Source: Candidatus Syntrophocurvum alkaliphilum (GTDB lineage: Bacteria; Bacillota; Syntrophomonadia; Syntrophomonadales; Syntrophomonadaceae). Taken from it: a DNA stretch of 64,000 nt. A program made the position numbers and the translations under genes. Positions 10,231 through 56,323 of the stretch are shown here, piece by piece. The stretch is taken from contig NZ_CP046457.1 of the NCBI RefSeq assembly GCF_009734445.1, positions 248,001 through 312,000 of the forward strand. The letters are read 5' to 3'. Numbering within the stretch: position 1 is the stretch's first letter; each line of letters begins with the position of its first letter. A model generated the notes under the pieces. The model did no database searches. It saw nothing but the letters and a program-made list of their open reading frames with translations, and was not told the origin of the DNA.

Positions 10231-10457
10231 GGTTTCACTGCGAAAAGTTAAACTTAGGCTATGGAATCGGCTGAGCAAACATGTTTATCACGCCGCTCAT
10301 CGGTCTTTATCTTCATTTTTGCTTAGCACTTATTATCTAAAGTAAAATTTATTTATACTTAGCTGTGATCTATGCACCACGCCTTGCTATTCGGGGACTT
10401 AGATAAACATGTTTGCTCAGCCTTAAGTTTGTTGTAGTTGCTTTTTGCAGCAGAATC
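10231..10457 (-). mobile_element. MITE-like element A, copy 2 (full length)
   Basis: About 227 bp in inverse orientation to copy 1, with ends GGTTTCACTGCGAAAAG and CTTTTTGCAGCAGAATC. It is flanked by the 7-bp direct repeat AACATTT at 10224-10230 and 10458-10464. It is nearly identical to copy 3 on the other side of the HAD gene. Confidence 0.85.
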
Positions 10458-10497
10458 AACATTTTTAATAATAGATAATATAAACGGAGGTTTAATA

Positions 10498-10989: not shown

Positions 10990-11215
10990 GGTTTCACTGC
11001 GAAAAGTTAAACTTAGGCTATGGAATCAGCTGAGCAAACATGTTTATCACGCCGCTCATCGGTCTTTATCTTCATTTTTGCTTAGCACTTATTATCTAAA
11101 GTAAAATTTATTTATACTTAGCCGTGATCTATGCACCACGCCTTGCTATTCGGGACTTAGATAAACATGTTTGCTCAGCCTTAAGTTCTTTGTAGTTGCT
11201 TTTTGCAGCAGAATC
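10990..11215 (-). mobile_element. MITE-like element A, copy 3 (full length)
   Basis: About 226 bp, same orientation as copy 2 and almost the same sequence. It is flanked by the 6-bp direct repeat ACCTTT at 10984-10989 and 11216-11221. The different duplications show that copies 2 and 3 inserted independently. Confidence 0.85.
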
Positions 11216-11231
11216 ACCTTTTAATATTAGC

Positions 11232-14753: not shown

Positions 14754-16739
14754 ATGAAGAAACGAGTAGGCGTATTTGTTTGTGATTGTGGAACTAATAT
14801 CGCCTCAACAGTTAATACAGAGCAGGTAGCTGAATTAACCAAAAAGATGCCTGGGGTTGTATACTCTACTGTTTATAAATATATGTGCTCAGATCCAGGG
14901 CAGGATCTAATAAAGAAAGCCATTCAAGAACAGAATTTAGAACAGGTGGTAGTTGCTTCTTGTTCACCTCGTATGCATGGGGATACATTCCGCAAAGCAA
15001 CAAAAGCAGGTGGGATTAACCCATATTTATTTGAGATGGCAAATATTAGAGAACAGGACTCTTGGGTACATTCCGATGTAGAACAAGCAACCAAAAAAGC
15101 AATTGACTTAGTTAAAATGAGCGTAAGTAAAGTTGTACGTAATAAGCCTTTAGAAGTATCAACTGTACCGGTGACAAAAAAGGCTTTAGTTGTTGGTGGA
15201 GGCATTGCCGGTATGCAAGCGGCTCTAGATATTGCTGAGACCGGAAATAAAGTAATTCTGGTAGAAAAAAATGCAAGCATAGGCGGCAAGATGACTCAAA
15301 TAGATAAGACCTTTCCAACTATGGATTGCTCTGCTTGAATAAGCACTCCCAAGATGGTTGCTGTGGCACAGCATCCTAACATTGAACTGATGACTTATTC
15401 AGAAGTAACCAAGGTTGATGGTTATATAGGAAACTTTACCGCTACCATTAAGAAAAAAGCTAAGTATGTAGATTGGGATAAATGCAATGGTTGTGGTGAT
15501 TGTGAAGAAAAATGTCCATCTAAAAAGGTGGCAGATCCATTTGAAATGAACTTAGGCAAAACAACTGCTATTCGTAAGATGTTTCCTCAAGCCGTACCTG
15601 GAAAGCCTTTAATAGAGGCTGAACACTGTACAAAACTTACAAAAGGCAAGTGCGGAGTTTGTGAAAAGATTTGTCAAGCCGAAGCAATTCGTTTTGAGGA
15701 TAAAGATGAATTTATAACTGAACAAATCGGGGCTATTGTAATGGCTACTGGTTTTGAACAATTTAAATGGGAAGAAACCTATGGTGAATATGGATATGGA
15801 AAATATCCAGATGTAATAACAAGTTTACATTTTGAAAGGCTAGTTAGTTCAGGTGGACCAACTGGAGGTAAGATTCAGAGACCATCTGATGGCAAGGTGC
15901 CTGAAAGTGTAGCATTTATTAAATGTGTAGGCTCTAGAGATGACCTAAAAGGAAAAAGCTATTGTTCACGTGCTTGCTGTATGTATACTGCAAAACATGC
16001 ATCTCAAGTTAAGGAAAAACTACCTGATAGCGATGCCTTAGTTTTCTATATGGATGTTAGAACAGCAGGTAAGAGCTATGAAGAGTTTTACCAACGTTCT
16101 CTTGATGCAGGAGCTAAATATATTCGTGGTAGAGTAAGTAAGATTTACAAGCGTGGAGATAAATTAGTTCTTAAATCTGAAGATAGTTTAATCGGAAAGC
16201 CAATTGAAGCAGAAGTTGATATGGTGGTTTTAGCTGCTGGCATGATACCAGCCGAAGGTGCTAATGAAACAGCTAAGATTATTGGGTTTGGAACAGACAA
16301 GGATGGATTCTTCCAAGAAGCACATCCTAAGCTTCAACCAGTAGAAACATTTACTGCAGGAGTATATTTGGCCGGAGCATGTCAAGGTCCTAAAGATATA
16401 CCTGATTCTGTAGCGCAAGCAAGTGCTGCGGCAGTTAAAGTTGCTGGTATGTTCTCTAAAGATGAACTAGCTACTGAACCAATGATATCAGAAGTTGATG
16501 TCTGGAAATGTTCAGGTTGTGAATTATGTGTTCCTATTTGCCCATATAAGGCTATTAGTATAAAAGAATTTGAAGATAGAGGCCATCATGGTCGATTTAC
16601 TAGAAAAGTGGCTGAGGTAAATCCAAGCCTTTGCCAAGGTTGTGGGGCGTGTCTACCTGCATGTCGTACTATGGCACTAACACTAAAAGGCTTTACCGAC
16701 GACCAATTAGTATCGGAGGTGGATGCACTGTGTCTGTAG
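14754..16739 (+). CDS. hdrA: Heterodisulfide reductase subunit A, selenoprotein
   Basis: A 661-residue flavoprotein if the in-frame TGA at 15336-15338 is read as selenocysteine (residue 195). HdrA carries the bifurcating FAD. Seen: N-terminal HdrA domain ('[12 protein letters not shown]'), FAD loop 'VGGGIAGM' at 147-154, then 'TMDCSA-U-ISTPKM', where the family normally has Cys ('DCAACILTPKM'). Ferredoxin-type sites follow at Cys244/247/250/254, Cys292/300/303/307, Cys586/589/592/596 and Cys627/630/633/637. The frame is open on both sides of the TGA and full family length is recovered. A hairpin follows the TGA (15356-15376). The start has GGAGGGAGACGG upstream. Without readthrough the product would stop at 194 residues. 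Confidence 0.92.
15336..15338 (+). other. In-frame UGA, predicted selenocysteine 195 of HdrA
   Basis: TGA replaces the conserved Cys codon of the 'DCxxC' motif of HdrA. The codon sits in an otherwise intact frame, and homologous sequence continues immediately after it. Confidence 0.9.
15356..15376 (+). promoter_or_regulatory. Bacterial SECIS-like hairpin in hdrA
   Basis: Seventeen bases after the UGA, GG-U-UGCUGU pairs with ACAGCA-U-CC around a GGC loop, with a U-U mismatch low in the stem. Position and small G-containing apical loop fit bacterial SECIS elements bound by SelB. Confidence 0.7.
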
Positions 16740-20295: not shown

Positions 20296-20426
20296 GGTTC
20301 TGTTGCTAAAAGTAACTACAAAAACTTAAGGCTGATTTGTTTATCTAAGTCTTTAAGTAGCAAGGCGTGGTAAACATGTTTGCTTAGCCAATTTATAGTC
20401 TAAGTTTAGCTTTTTGCAGTGAAACC
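20296..20426 (+). repeat. MITE-like element A, internally deleted copy 5
   Basis: About 131 bp with both ends and part of the right arm; the central third is missing. Flanks TTTACTT (20289-20295) and TTTACCT (20427-20433) match in six of seven bases, a decayed target duplication. The gap 19965-20771 otherwise holds only the small gene at 20031 and copy 6. Confidence 0.75.
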
Positions 20427-20531: not shown

Positions 20532-20663
20532 GATTCTTGCCAAAAGCAACTACAAAAAACTTAAGGCTATAGCTAACTTGTTTATCTAAGTCCATAAGTA
20601 GTAAGGCGAACATGTTTGCTCAGCCGATTCCATAGTCTTAGTTTAGTTTTTTTCAGTGAAATT
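20532..20663 (+). repeat. MITE-like element A, internally deleted copy 6
   Basis: About 132 bp, diverged, with the same central deletion as copy 5 and about 105 bases after it. Ends read GATTCTTGCCAAAAG and TTTTTTTCAGTGAAAT. No clear target duplication remains. It lies about 110 bases before the aminotransferase-fusion start and could influence its leader. Confidence 0.7.
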
Positions 20664-20771
20664 ATTTCTTTATTTTAAATATTGTAGTTATGTTTGACTT
20701 TTTGCGATATAAAGGTATAATTATTGCATGCAGATACATTGCACAAATGTGTGCACAGAGGAGGAAGGAAA

Positions 20772-23456
20772 ATGTTAGATCACAAAATGGATCTACTTAA
20801 CCCTACGATATATGAGCTTTTGAAGAATTTTCAATTAGATAAGGTGTATGTAAAAGGTGAGGGAAGTTACCTTTGGGATGATGATAATAATAGGTATTTA
20901 GACTTCATAGCACAATATGGTGCTGTGCCTTTTGGCTATAATCCAAAGTTTATCTGGGATGCAATTACTGAAGTTCGTGATAAAGGCTTGCCAAGTATGG
21001 TGCAACCATCACTACCTCCTATTGCTTTAAATCTTGCTAATAGGTTGATGGAGATTACACCTGGTGATTTATGTTATACAACTTTTACTCAAAGTGGTGC
21101 AGAAGCAGTAGAAGCAGCAGTTAAATTAGCTCGTTCATCAACCAAAAAACCTGTAATAATATCAACAATTAATAGCTTTCATGGTAAAACATTAGGAGCA
21201 CTTTCAGCTACTGGTAGAGAGGTTTACCAAACTCCTTTTGGTGCACCAGTTAATGGCTTTATACAAATTCCATTCAATGATATAAATGCTTTAGAAGATG
21301 TACTTGTTAAGATGGGAGACAAAGTAGCAGCTTTCATAGTGGAACCAATACAGGGTGAAGGTGGAATGCTTACAGCTACTAAAGGTTACTTAAAAGCTGT
21401 TCAAGAGTTATGCAGAAAGCATAATGTCCTTTTTATTCTGGATGAAATTCAAACAGGGTTAGGAAGAACAGGTACCCTATTTGCTAGTGATTTTGAAGAA
21501 GTAGAACCCGATATATTACTTTTAGCAAAAGCCTTAGGTGGTGGAATATTACCTTTAGGTGTATGTATAAGTTCATCACAAGTATGGAATGATGAATTTG
21601 GTTCTCTTCATAGTTCTACATTTGCAAATAATAATGTTACATCTGCAGCTGGACTTGCAGTAATTGAGGAGCTTACTAAGGATAATCAAGCTTTAATTAA
21701 TGAAATAAGCAAAAAAGGTGACTATTTATTTAACAAAGTTGTTAATTTGAAAGAGAATTATCCTGAAATAATAAGAGAAGTACGTGGTCGTGGGTTAATG
21801 ATAGGTATTGAATTTAATGATTTTGATGATTGTGGTTCTTATGACATGACCTACTTAACCGATAAAGGTGGCTTTACAGCATTATTGGCTGGCTTTTTAC
21901 TAAATGTTTATAACATTAGAATAGTACCGTTTCTAAACAATCCTATGACATTAAGATTAGAGCCAGTTTTAACAATAAGCTATGAAGAGATTGATTATGT
22001 ACTTGATGCACTAGAAACGGTTTGTAAAATTATAGAAAAACAAGATTTTGCTCAATTATACAAATACTTGGTTGGTGACTATTCAAAGCCAAATGAAATA
22101 GTAAACTATCGCCTAAAAGGAAATAAAATAAAATCATCACAACTTATGGAAGGGGAAAAGCCATCCAAAAAATTTGCATTTATTATTCATTACCCTGCTC
22201 CAGAAGATGTTGTCCTAAATAATCCTTCTTTTGAAAGGTTTTCACGTCAACAACTATATGAATTTATGAAGTGGCAAAGTAATACTACTGAACCTGGTAT
22301 AGTATGTCATATGCCAGCAATTAAATCATTAGATGGTACAGTAGTAGAAGGGTGGTTAATAGGTGTTCCGTTTGGTGGAAGAGAGATTATGGAACTTCCT
22401 AACAATGAAGTTGTTGATGTAATTGCTAAAGCAGTTGATATTGGCAGGGATTTAGGTGCTGATATAGTTGGCCTAGGTGCTCTAACATCTGTTGTTACTC
22501 GTGGTGGAAGAGCTGTACAAGGTAGAGGTGTAGCGATAACTAGCGGAAACAGTTATACTACACTTATAGCTATGGATGCACTTTATGCAGGGGCTCAAAA
22601 AATGAAAATAGAATTAGACAATGCCCAAGGTGCAGTTTTAGGGGCTACAGGATCAATTGGTAGAGCATGTGCATTAATGTTGTCAGATCAAGTTATTAAC
22701 ATGTCACTTTTAGGTAACCCAAAGCATCCCACAAGTAGCAAAAATAGGCTATCTTCACTCGCTCAAGAAATTTTTGAACGAGGAAAGCGTAGGTATCAAA
22801 AACAAAATTATAGTGGTATAAGTCTATGGCTAAATAATCTTGTGGTGATTTTAAGTAATAAAAATAAACAAAAAGCAGATGATTTATTAATAAGAATTAA
22901 TGATAATAAAGAAGAATTAGAATTAGATTACATTAAATCTTTATGTAAATATGTTAATATTGACTTTCCGATTAAAATGAGTGTTGATATAGCTAACGAA
23001 CTAGCTAAGTCTGATATGATAGTAGCCGCAAGTAATTCACCTGACTATTTGGTTTATCCTGAGCATCTCAAATCGGGAGCGGTAGTATGTGATGTAGCTC
23101 GTCCGGCAGATGTTTCACCAAGGGTTTACGAAGAAAGAAATGATGTACTAATTTTAGAGGGAGGGCTTGTAAGCTACCCAGACAAAATAGCATTTGGTCC
23201 TAATTTGGGTTATAGGGAAGGGGTTAGTTTAGCTTGCTTATCGGAAACAGTTTTATTAGCATTAGAAGGTGATAAAAAAGATTATAGTATTGGAATGAAG
23301 CTTTCTCTTGAAACAGTTGATTATCTTCGATTTTTAGCTCAAAAACATGGTTTTGGACTAGCTGGTTTAAGGATGGGGAATGAAGAAATAGATGATAAAA
23401 AAATAGAAAAAATTTACCAAAACTCATTAAATCTCGATCAAGTAGATAATCTTTAA
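20772..23456 (+). CDS. Class III aminotransferase fused to acyl-ACP-reductase-like domain
   Basis: An 894-residue two-domain protein, start at ATG 20772 with GAGGAGGAAGG upstream. Residues 1-430 are a complete class III PLP aminotransferase: 'QSGAEAVEAAVKLAR' (108-122), 'FHGKT', 'LDEIQTGLGRTG' (223-234) and the PLP lysine Lys253 in 'LAKALGGG'. Residues 467-870 match cyanobacterial long-chain acyl-ACP reductase (AAR) along their length: 'VGLGALTSVVTRGG', 'ITSGNSYTT', NADP loop 'LGATGSIGRA' (623-632), 'DVLILEGGLV', and Cys822 in 'ACLSETVLLALEG' at the place of the AAR acyl-carrying cysteine. Expected chemistry is acyl thioester to aldehyde, then transamination to an amine. Monocistronic. The order of steps is inference. 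Confidence 0.83.
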   Translation: MLDHKMDLLNPTIYELLKNFQLDKVYVKGEGSYLWDDDNNRYLDFIAQYGAVPFGYNPKFIWDAITEVRDKGLPSMVQPSLPPIALNLANRLMEITPGDLCYTTFTQSGAEAVEAAVKLARSSTKKPVIISTINSFHGKTLGALSATGREVYQTPFGAPVNGFIQIPFNDINALEDVLVKMGDKVAAFIVEPIQGEGGMLTATKGYLKAVQELCRKHNVLFILDEIQTGLGRTGTLFASDFEEVEPDILLLAKALGGGILPLGVCISSSQVWNDEFGSLHSSTFANNNVTSAAGLAVIEELTKDNQALINEISKKGDYLFNKVVNLKENYPEIIREVRGRGLMIGIEFNDFDDCGSYDMTYLTDKGGFTALLAGFLLNVYNIRIVPFLNNPMTLRLEPVLTISYEEIDYVLDALETVCKIIEKQDFAQLYKYLVGDYSKPNEIVNYRLKGNKIKSSQLMEGEKPSKKFAFIIHYPAPEDVVLNNPSFERFSRQQLYEFMKWQSNTTEPGIVCHMPAIKSLDGTVVEGWLIGVPFGGREIMELPNNEVVDVIAKAVDIGRDLGADIVGLGALTSVVTRGGRAVQGRGVAITSGNSYTTLIAMDALYAGAQKMKIELDNAQGAVLGATGSIGRACALMLSDQVINMSLLGNPKHPTSSKNRLSSLAQEIFERGKRRYQKQNYSGISLWLNNLVVILSNKNKQKADDLLIRINDNKEELELDYIKSLCKYVNIDFPIKMSVDIANELAKSDMIVAASNSPDYLVYPEHLKSGAVVCDVARPADVSPRVYEERNDVLILEGGLVSYPDKIAFGPNLGYREGVSLACLSETVLLALEGDKKDYSIGMKLSLETVDYLRFLAQKHGFGLAGLRMGNEEIDDKKIEKIYQNSLNLDQVDNL

Positions 23457-23755: not shown

Positions 23756-24175
23756 ATGGATATTAAAGAAATTGTGATAAAAAGTAATGGCAAATGGTAT
23801 TTTGGTGAATCAGAAATGTTTAGAAGAGAAATATTAAAGCTTTTAGCATCTAATATAACTAAAAACGATGATGGGACTTATAGTATTGTGCTAGGAGAAG
23901 AGACTAATCCTATAACAGTAGAAGATGTACCCTTTTATGCTACAGGAATTACTGAAGAGAATGACAAAATCAAATTAAGGTTTCATGACTTGCAAGAAAT
24001 TATTTTAGATAAAGAAATGAAACTTACTTTAAAAGGGGATGTGCCGTATATAGACTTTAAATGGGAGGCAGATACAAGATTAAGCAGAGGAGTATACTGG
24101 AAGCTAAGTGACTATTTCGATTTTAGAGGAGATGAAATCTACATAGTACCTCCTGGAGTTGAAAGTTCTAATTAG
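23756..24175 (+). CDS. DUF1285-like protein
   Basis: A 139-residue soluble protein. Its pattern 'GKWYFGESEMFRREILKLL...DGTYSIVLGEE-x-PITVEDVPF' follows the DUF1285 layout (a W-Y start, an R-E helix, then 'I-x-V-E-D-x-P-F'). The function of that family is not established. The site upstream of the ATG is weak (AAAGGAA about 14 bases away). The gene converges on the radical SAM gene with a shared hairpin in between. Call from motif pattern only. Confidence 0.6.
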   Translation: MDIKEIVIKSNGKWYFGESEMFRREILKLLASNITKNDDGTYSIVLGEETNPITVEDVPFYATGITEENDKIKLRFHDLQEIILDKEMKLTLKGDVPYIDFKWEADTRLSRGVYWKLSDYFDFRGDEIYIVPPGVESSN

Positions 24176-43554: not shown

Positions 43555-43675
43555 ACTTTCAATTTTGAATTGTTAATTTTGAATTTTTAATTAATGAAGG
43601 GAAACTATTGTTTCCCTATTTAATTATATAAAAAGGGAAACCTTGCTTCCCCACAATAATTAAGAATTAAAAATT
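43555..43675 (+). repeat. AT-rich repeat C variant
   Basis: About 121 bp with AATTTTTAATT-type tracts at the left and AATTAAGAATT at the right, enclosing GGGAAACTATTGTTTCCC and GGGAAACCTTGCTTCCC. It lies directly next to MITE-like copy 7. Confidence 0.6.
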
Positions 43676-43902
43676 GATTCTGCTGCAAAAAGTAACTACA
43701 ACAAACTTAAGGCTGAACAAACATGTTTATCTAAGTCCCGAATAGCAAGGCGTGGTGCATAGATCACGGCTAAGTATAAATAAAAAATCATTTTAGATAA
43801 TAAGTGCTAAGCTAAAATGGAGGTAAAGACCGATGAGCGGCGTGATAAACATGTTTGCTCAGCCGATTCCATACTCTAAGTTTAGCTTTTTGCAGTGGAA
43901 TC
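43676..43902 (+). mobile_element. MITE-like element A, copy 7 (full length)
   Basis: About 227 bp with well-preserved ends GATTCTGCTGCAAAAAG and CTTTTTGCAGTGGAATC. It is flanked by AAAATT at 43670-43675 and 43903-43908. Confidence 0.85.
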
Positions 43903-49038: not shown

Positions 49039-49073
49039 TTTGTCCCTTTTTCTGTTTTGCGAAACTAATTATT

Positions 49074-49299
49074 GATTCTGCTGCAAAAAGTAACTACAAA
49101 GAACTTAAGGTTGAGCAAACATGTTTATCTAAGTCCCGAATAGCAAGGCGTGGTGCATAGATCACGGCTAAGTATAAATAAATTTTACTTTAGATAATAA
49201 GTGCTAAACAAAAATGAAGATAAAGACCGATGAGCGGCGTGATAAACATGTTTGCTCAGCCGATTCCATAGCTTAAGTTTAACTTTTCGCAGTGAAACC
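49074..49299 (+). mobile_element. MITE-like element A, copy 8 (full length)
   Basis: About 226 bp with ends GATTCTGCTGCAAAAAG and CTTTTCGCAGTGAAACC. The internal arms at 49111-49129 and 49241-49258 are inverse complements. Flanked by ATTATT at 49068-49073 and 49300-49305. Confidence 0.87.
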
Positions 49300-49300
49300 A

Positions 49301-49515
49301 TTATTTAATTTTGCCAGATAGTAGCAACACATGACCGTGTCCGATACCCTCTGAGATGCAAATCTACACCAGCATCTATTGGAATATGATTCATATATTG
49401 AACTCCACCACCTATCATAACATCTCCACTAAATCCGAACATTTGTGAACCATGATTGCTTTCCTGCGTGAGCAACAGCAGTACGTGTAGTTTCTACCAC
49501 AAAAACTTTTCTCAT
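49301..49515 (-). pseudogene. Thiolase (acetyl-CoA acetyltransferase) remnant
   Basis: Read leftward from ATG 49515 (with GGAGGT before it) the sequence begins like a thiolase: 'MRKVFVVETTRTAVAHAGKQ'. It meets a stop after about 30 codons. In other frames further thiolase-like pieces follow: 'GDVMIGGGVQYMNHIPI' and, near the end, 'GHGHVLLLSGKIK'. About 70 codons remain of a ~390-residue gene, so there are large internal deletions and frameshifts. MITE-like copy 8 abuts its 3' end. Confidence 0.65.
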
Positions 49516-56230: not shown

Positions 56231-56247
56231 TATGTAAATTGGTAATT

Positions 56248-56323
56248 GGTTTCACTGCTAAAAGCTAAATTTAGACTATAGAATCAGCTGAGCAAACATG
56301 CTTATCACGTCACTCCTCGGTCT
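56248..56323 (-). repeat. MITE-like element A, one-ended fragment (copy 9)
   Basis: Only the part from GGTTTCACTGCTAAAAG through the arm GAGCAAACATGCTTATCACG and on to CGGTCTTTTT remains. The other end is missing and no duplication is seen. Confidence 0.65.

Follow-up and report, generated by a model that had tools for sequence, protein, structure and literature searches.

The locus described here raises the question of what a protein that joins a class III aminotransferase (TA) to an acyl-ACP-reductase (AAR) domain is doing on the chromosome of a syntrophic anaerobe, and of how its gene is controlled. TA-AAR fusions have so far been known chiefly from alkaloid gene clusters in a small number of proteobacteria, and from their use as biocatalysts. 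Because the layout of the enzyme is already known, the interest of the present gene lies in where it sits. The window referred to below is the whole 64,000-nucleotide stretch of DNA that was analysed, and the host genome is that of a member of the Syntrophomonadaceae, as placed by its named relatives.

Architecture and catalytic residues of the fusion protein

Translation of the open reading frame at 20772-23456 gives an uninterrupted product of 894 aa, and direct reading of its residues bore out the coordinates and residue numbers of the first-pass annotation, which had been made from the sequence alone. A TTG codon at 20724, in the same frame, is unlikely to serve as an alternative start, because the operator described below and the GGAGG ribosome-binding site both precede the ATG at 20772. 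The gene and its features are as follows.

20760-20764, + strand: ribosome-binding site GGAGG before ATG 20772, read from the sequence
20772-23456, + strand: fusion gene, class III aminotransferase plus acyl-ACP-reductase (AAR) domain, 894 aa
20772-22043, + strand: aminotransferase domain, residues 1-424, from Pfam Aminotran_3 and fold matches
21528-21530, + strand: codon of Lys253, the PLP Schiff-base lysine, from alignment and direct reading
22149-23453, + strand: reductase domain of AAR fold, residues 460-894, from sequence and fold comparison
22641-22661, + strand: nucleotide-binding loop GATGSIG, residues 624-630, read directly
22719-22976, + strand: helical insert (residues ~650-735) that distinguishes TA-AAR fusions from stand-alone AARs
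23235-23237, + strand: codon for Cys822, the counterpart of Cys294, the nucleophile of SeAAR, from alignment and direct reading
23756-24175, + strand: DUF1285_N protein, 139 aa, downstream of the fusion (Pfam PF06938, 32 bits)

The N-terminal half is covered by Pfam Aminotran_3 over residues 25-416 (300 bits, E 2.8e-89), and fold comparison of this half returned PigE (4ppm), YgjG (4uox) and CrmG (5dds) as structural matches. The PLP domain is intact, as had been claimed. The model of the full-length fusion has a pLDDT of 87 and a pTM of 0.81.

For the reductase half, the link to cyanobacterial AAR is weak yet significant at the level of sequence and strong at the level of the predicted fold. 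Residues ~470-870 align to the solved cyanobacterial enzyme (6jzq, E 3.8e-10), while the domain as modelled by AlphaFold (pLDDT 90) has 6jzy, 6jzz, 6jzq and 6jzu as its top PDB matches, with E values down to 2.5e-19, the next match after these SeAAR entries being the TAD domain of the carmabin pathway. The AAR correspondence drawn in the first-pass annotation was therefore upheld, with Cys822 falling on SeAAR Cys294, and the C294S entry, 6jzz, shows Ser at the aligned place. The NCBIfam AAR model, TIGR04058, scores the fusion at 64 bits, far under its cut-off of 449.7, and the reductase domain is thus regarded as a distant AAR relative. SeAAR (6jzy) has the fold, the loop and the catalytic Cys in common with this domain, whereas the structure alignment gives 19% identity and SeAAR possesses neither the helical insert nor a fused TA. 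The helices of the insert are visible in the predicted models of the fusion, and the spacing between the loop and the next conserved motif has a median of 128 residues in fusions versus 74-78 in stand-alone AARs.

Lys253, Asp224, the GATGSIG loop (624-630) and Cys822 were all read directly in the translated protein, and all 31 aligned fused homologues (37-65% identity) keep Lys253, Cys822 and the glycines of the loop; the loss of Cys or NADP residues among homologues, which the first-pass annotation had named as counting against its reading, was thus not encountered among the fused proteins. The loop that it had assigned to NADP stands as a nucleotide-binding loop, while the naming of an NADP site exceeds the evidence, since the motif fits NAD or NADP and the related PtTamH is NADH-specific. 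Among stand-alone AAR-like proteins of Clostridia, some have the catalytic Cys replaced (Trp-type in Thermincola, L037:2642-3757, - strand; Ser in G068/L049:2800-3816, - strand).

Characterized relatives, distribution and genomic setting

The first-pass annotation knew of no characterized enzyme of this layout, a claim of novelty which fails because PtTamH, four fusions characterized in 2024 and KecF share the layout. PtTamH, reported in 2022 from the tambjamine pathway of Pseudoalteromonas tunicata, comprises an N-terminal class III TA and a C-terminal AAR-like TR with a GxxGxxG motif and a catalytic Cys (PMC9594044), and has its domain order, GxxGxxG and catalytic Cys in common with the fusion described here. 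In vitro, it converts C12 acid-ACP to the C12 amine with NADH and L-Glu, the aldehyde being observed when L-Glu is omitted, and together with TamA the entire acid-to-amine cascade has been demonstrated (PMC9594044). It is specific for NADH, rejects acyl-CoA and NADPH, accepts acyl chains of C7-C14, and depends on TamA as a dedicated adenylation-ACP partner (PMC9594044). Whereas PtTamH is encoded within a tambjamine cluster with this ANL-ACP partner, the present fusion is a core chromosomal gene without it.

In 2024, Prout et al. characterized four TA-AAR fusions, PpKTFusion, TmFusion, TsFusion and TfFusion, for their activity as transaminases (PMC10829540). TfFusion (Tfer_2018), from the Firmicute Thermincola ferriacetica, transaminates aliphatic aldehydes with a preference for L-Glu, and its TA accepts short aliphatic as well as aryl aldehydes; the transaminase half alone was assayed, reductase activity not being reported (PMC10829540), and the open-licence literature yielded no report in which the reductase half of a Firmicute fusion had been assayed in vitro. 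TfFusion has the same domain order and belongs to the same clade as the fusion studied here, a comparison made through two MAG orthologues (L074 and L075). The one that stands for TfFusion here, L075, has Cys at residue 824, the position published for TfFusion, and the second, L074, likewise from T. ferriacetica, shares 52% identity with the present fusion over 874 aa. The Thermincola loci differ from the present one in having no operator before the fusion (3-4 mismatches), where the operator is perfect here.

KecF of the koreenceine cluster (PMC6498172) and PpKTFusion (PMC10829540) likewise have the TA-AAR order, but are linked to ACP, ketosynthases and SDRs in the making of polyketide alkaloid rings, a linkage that the present fusion does not have. 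A kec-like cluster carrying a TA-AAR fusion was also detected in Photobacterium (L173), its fusion lying within the same tree clade. PigE of the prodigiosin pathway consists of the same two domains in reversed order, reductase first, and acts on a C10 keto-aldehyde in the amine-forming direction (PMC8341465). It provides the top matches of the present fusion both in NCBIfam (NF053554, 554 bits, below the 850-bit cut-off) and in the PDB (4ppm); however, its domain order is opposite and it occupies a separate branch of the tree. A true PigE (L169) reaches 1400 bits on the same model, and PigE genes were recovered in pig-type clusters.

The tree unites the TA-AAR fusions, those of kec type among them, in a single clade (support 98/99) of 42 fusions and one split gene, which leaves out PigE and nearly all stand-alone AARs and involves two changes on the tree, with none of 500 shuffles equally low. 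Common ancestry was here tested with the kec-type fusions, and the inner branching order of the clade is unsure because L173, L171 and L175 are long branches. The split gene (L123) was seen on inspection to retain the insert specific to fusions, and it adjoins a separate aminotransferase gene, while in Natronincola and in a Halobacteroidaceae MAG the two halves are neighbouring separate genes. Natural fusions of the L171/L175 set comprise an ACP-TA-AAR protein of 980 aa in Paraburkholderia phymatum and a TA-AAR-AMP-ligase protein of 1395 aa on a Leisingera plasmid. These longer fusions and the split pairs agree with a route from acid to thioester to aldehyde to amine.

The fusion gene is present in 54 of the 63 genomes of the host's class, small genomes included; most of the exceptions are either incomplete assemblies or members of a single family that lacks the gene (f2, five genomes). 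It represents, in the Syntrophomonadaceae, a core, single-copy chromosomal gene outside any natural-product cluster. Of 399 genomes of the phylum, 244 encode AAR-type domains, about 50 of them as fused frames (~865-1,030 aa) and most of the others as stand-alone proteins (~360-390 aa). TA-AAR fusions are present too in Bacillus, Anoxybacillus, Brevibacillus and Rhodobacterales, and the fusion gene is therefore not anaerobe-specific.

The neighbours of the fusion are Hdr/Flx redox genes, DUF1285, radical SAM, LytTR regulator and MoxR/VWA genes and murI, among which no linkage of the tambjamine, koreenceine or prodigiosin type (KS, ACP, pyrrole or PKS genes) was found. Surveying the neighbours of homologues, an avenue already pointed out in the first-pass annotation, revealed an HTH-family 25 gene pair before AAR genes, as detailed below, and a DUF1285 gene after the fusion at 24 loci, solely within the host's class. 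DUF1285 was set aside as a functional partner, being class-restricted and offering no mechanism. A functional tie to the adjoining Hdr/Flx cluster, though the arrangement is common to many relatives, was likewise rejected as local synteny, because G042 (L053) and S. palmitatica (L071) carry the fusion elsewhere. Within that redox cluster, an HdrA gene at 14754-16739 is broken by an in-frame TGA (TMDCSA-U-ISTPKM), the same two ORFs recurring in relatives, and judging from its sequence it probably encodes a selenocysteine HdrA.

Promoter, operator and a candidate regulator

Upstream of the fusion gene, two control elements were identified.

20694-20721, + strand: promoter TTGACT, 16 bp, TATAAT, with 11 of 12 consensus bases, predicted from the sequence
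20740-20755, no strand assigned: palindromic operator TGCACA-AATG-TGTGCA, at about +10 to +26 of the predicted transcript

A single promoter-like site occurs within 20600-20800, and the prediction is weak by itself because shuffles average 0.9 such sites; relatives carry comparable hexamers, of the TTGACA type, in the corresponding position with respect to the operator. The operator, TGCACAAATGTGTGCA (20740-20755), sits between the predicted promoter and the ribosome site. It is the sole perfect copy of TGCACA-N4-TGTGCA in the 2.36-Mb genome, and a perfect operator arose in 0 of 100 shuffles of the window. An operator with at most one mismatch lies close to the start of 64 of the 102 non-redundant fusion genes having upstream sequence, and the genes that bear it cover the host's class and several other lineages, including Dethiobacter; 31 of the 102 have neither an operator nor an adjacent HTH gene. 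No further regulon members emerged from the genome's three one-mismatch copies of the operator, all of which lie within coding sequence.

Other upstream elements were also considered. A riboswitch or other RNA was dismissed, as no Rfam match at gathering level was present in the window, the one upstream match being at chance level (E 1.6). Two repeats of ~130 bp (20303-20424 and 20537-20661) were rejected as part of the control region because they are dispersed in the window and absent from the fusion loci of relatives; they belong to an intergenic repeat of ~130-270 bp, which is also found at 1593-1829, 10231-10459, 10990-11216, 43674-43900, 49072-49312 and 56238-56309.

The candidate regulator is encoded at 1.96 Mb, where genes for an HTH protein (family 22) and a protein of ~300 aa (family 25) are adjacent (L181:8096-9596; genome C1:1962095-1963595), the HTH gene itself being preceded by the operator with two mismatches. 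The HTH gene occupies 1963068-1963595 and the family 25 gene 1962098-1963000, both on the minus strand. An operator with no more than two mismatches was found at 26 of 30 related HTH genes, each reached in at most 1% of shuffles, and the remaining four have no recognizable operator. Several lineages without an operator at the fusion have a small HTH gene directly upstream of the AAR gene, with or without the ~300-aa gene, and in other Clostridia the HTH-family 25 pair directly precedes the AAR gene, whether fused or stand-alone. In one genome (G075), the order is coaX-dusB-HTH-family25-AAR-greA-lysS, and the operator found at its HTH gene is perfect. Family 25 occurs in 290 of the 399 phylum genomes and shares 236 with AAR (p 3e-44) and 232 with the HTH family (p 3e-51), while AAR and the HTH family share 192 (p 7e-25). 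As these Fisher tests ignore phylogeny, the co-occurrence of the three families across the phylum is a strong association only. Family 25 had no significant match in Pfam, NCBIfam or the PDB, and no relation to AAR was detectable (hhalign probability 1%). In Syntrophomonadales, family 25 is followed by a third gene, of 301 aa and unannotated function, which was rejected as a degenerate AAR for lack of an HMM match.

From the placement of these operators and genes, we infer that the HTH protein acts as a repressor of its own gene, of family 25 and of the AAR gene, whether fused or stand-alone. The fusion is accordingly placed probably under a dedicated transcription factor, a repressor, namely the HTH protein of the HTH-family 25 operon, which would be the putative binder of the operator TGCACAnnnnTGTGCA. 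A search of the open-licence part of the literature returned no report of the conserved operator or of an association with the two orphan families, and this mode of gene control, comprising both, looks to be the new element of the locus.

Proposed reaction and competing explanations

Taken as a whole, the explanation that we consider probable is that the fusion represents a TamH-type bifunctional enzyme, converting an acyl thioester to an aldehyde and then to an amine, which is encoded by a core gene under dedicated HTH control. The acyl group of a thioester, most likely acyl-ACP, would be loaded from it onto Cys822 of the AAR-like domain, hydride transfer from NAD(P)H would release the aldehyde, and the N-terminal PLP domain (Lys253) would turn this into a primary amine, L-glutamate being the most likely amino donor. 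The direction of the reaction, the chain length, the amino donor and the physiological role are all inferred. By analogy with PtTamH, acyl-ACP appears more likely than acyl-CoA as substrate, and a lipid amine is a plausible product. The host genome has two stand-alone ACP matches and three AMP-ligase matches, none of the latter fused to ACP, and a genome search found no TamA-like adenylation-ACP partner, such a partner being characteristic of the tam cluster and not of the enzyme. The interpretation offered in the first-pass annotation is thus most likely right as to the chemistry, for which PtTamH is an in vitro precedent of the same layout, and wrong as to novelty.

It is possible, if rather unlikely, that the same chemistry acts on a short or unusual acyl thioester (butyryl- or crotonyl-CoA, branched, or oxo-acyl) and yields a small amine instead of a lipid. 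These fatty-acid oxidisers have butyryl- and crotonyl-CoA as their main intermediates, a dedicated long-chain activating partner is absent from the genome, the TA of TfFusion uses short aliphatic and aryl aldehydes, and the family varies in substrate, as is evident from the C7-C14 range of PtTamH and the C10 keto-aldehyde of PigE; however, the AAR fold and the closest PDB match are those of long-chain enzymes, and fusions occur also in aerobes (Bacillus, Rhodobacterales) without butyrate syntrophy. A reversal in vivo, by which the reductase domain would oxidise an aldehyde derived from an amine so as to feed an acyl thioester into beta-oxidation, would suit hosts that oxidise fatty acids, the reversibility of transaminases, the closeness of the TA domain to the putrescine aminotransferase YgjG, and a dedicated repressor, as expected of an inducible catabolic gene. 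It is nevertheless improbable: the characterized relatives of both halves run reductively to the amine (PMC9594044, PMC8341465), the Cys chemistry of AAR is thioester reduction, no amine transporter linkage is seen, and the gene is kept in nearly all class members, even those with small genomes. Least credible, and very improbable, is a structural or regulatory reductase half in what would essentially be a transaminase; the Cys-deficient stand-alone AAR-like proteins of Clostridia (L037, Trp-type; G068/L049, Ser) and the lack of a reported reduction test for the Firmicute fusion (PMC10829540) speak for it, and the finding that none of the 31 aligned fusions departs from Cys822 or from the loop glycines speaks against it.

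Returning to the TamH-type enzyme, its carriage by most genomes of a syntrophic-anaerobe class, together with its own conserved operator, implies a general cell function, perhaps involving a fatty amine or amino-lipid which has not yet been looked for. More tentatively, and with considerable doubt, the fusion may be one output of an undescribed but widespread Clostridia regulon, comprising the HTH repressor, the ~300-aa family and AAR, alone or fused, in which fatty aldehydes or amines would be made as unrecognized membrane or signalling lipids and the ~300-aa family would act on the aldehyde or the product. Through the link to the HTH regulator and family 25, two orphan gene families become directly accessible to testing, as does the question of why an AAR-like protein is encoded by over half of the phylum genomes.

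Other lineages present different settings for the fusion. Those of Rhodobacterales (L170, L174, L115, L121 and L176) adjoin a gene for a secreted protein, with VPLPA-CTERM in L170 and L174 and the exosortase XrtD nearby in L170, and their amine product might be tied to the exosortase sorting system. Bacillus-type fusions (L076, L077 and L078) are followed by genes for DUF3419 (BtaA-like), a glutamate-dehydrogenase-like protein and an MFS transporter, loci which, from their predicted gene content, look like clusters for a small amine-derived product.
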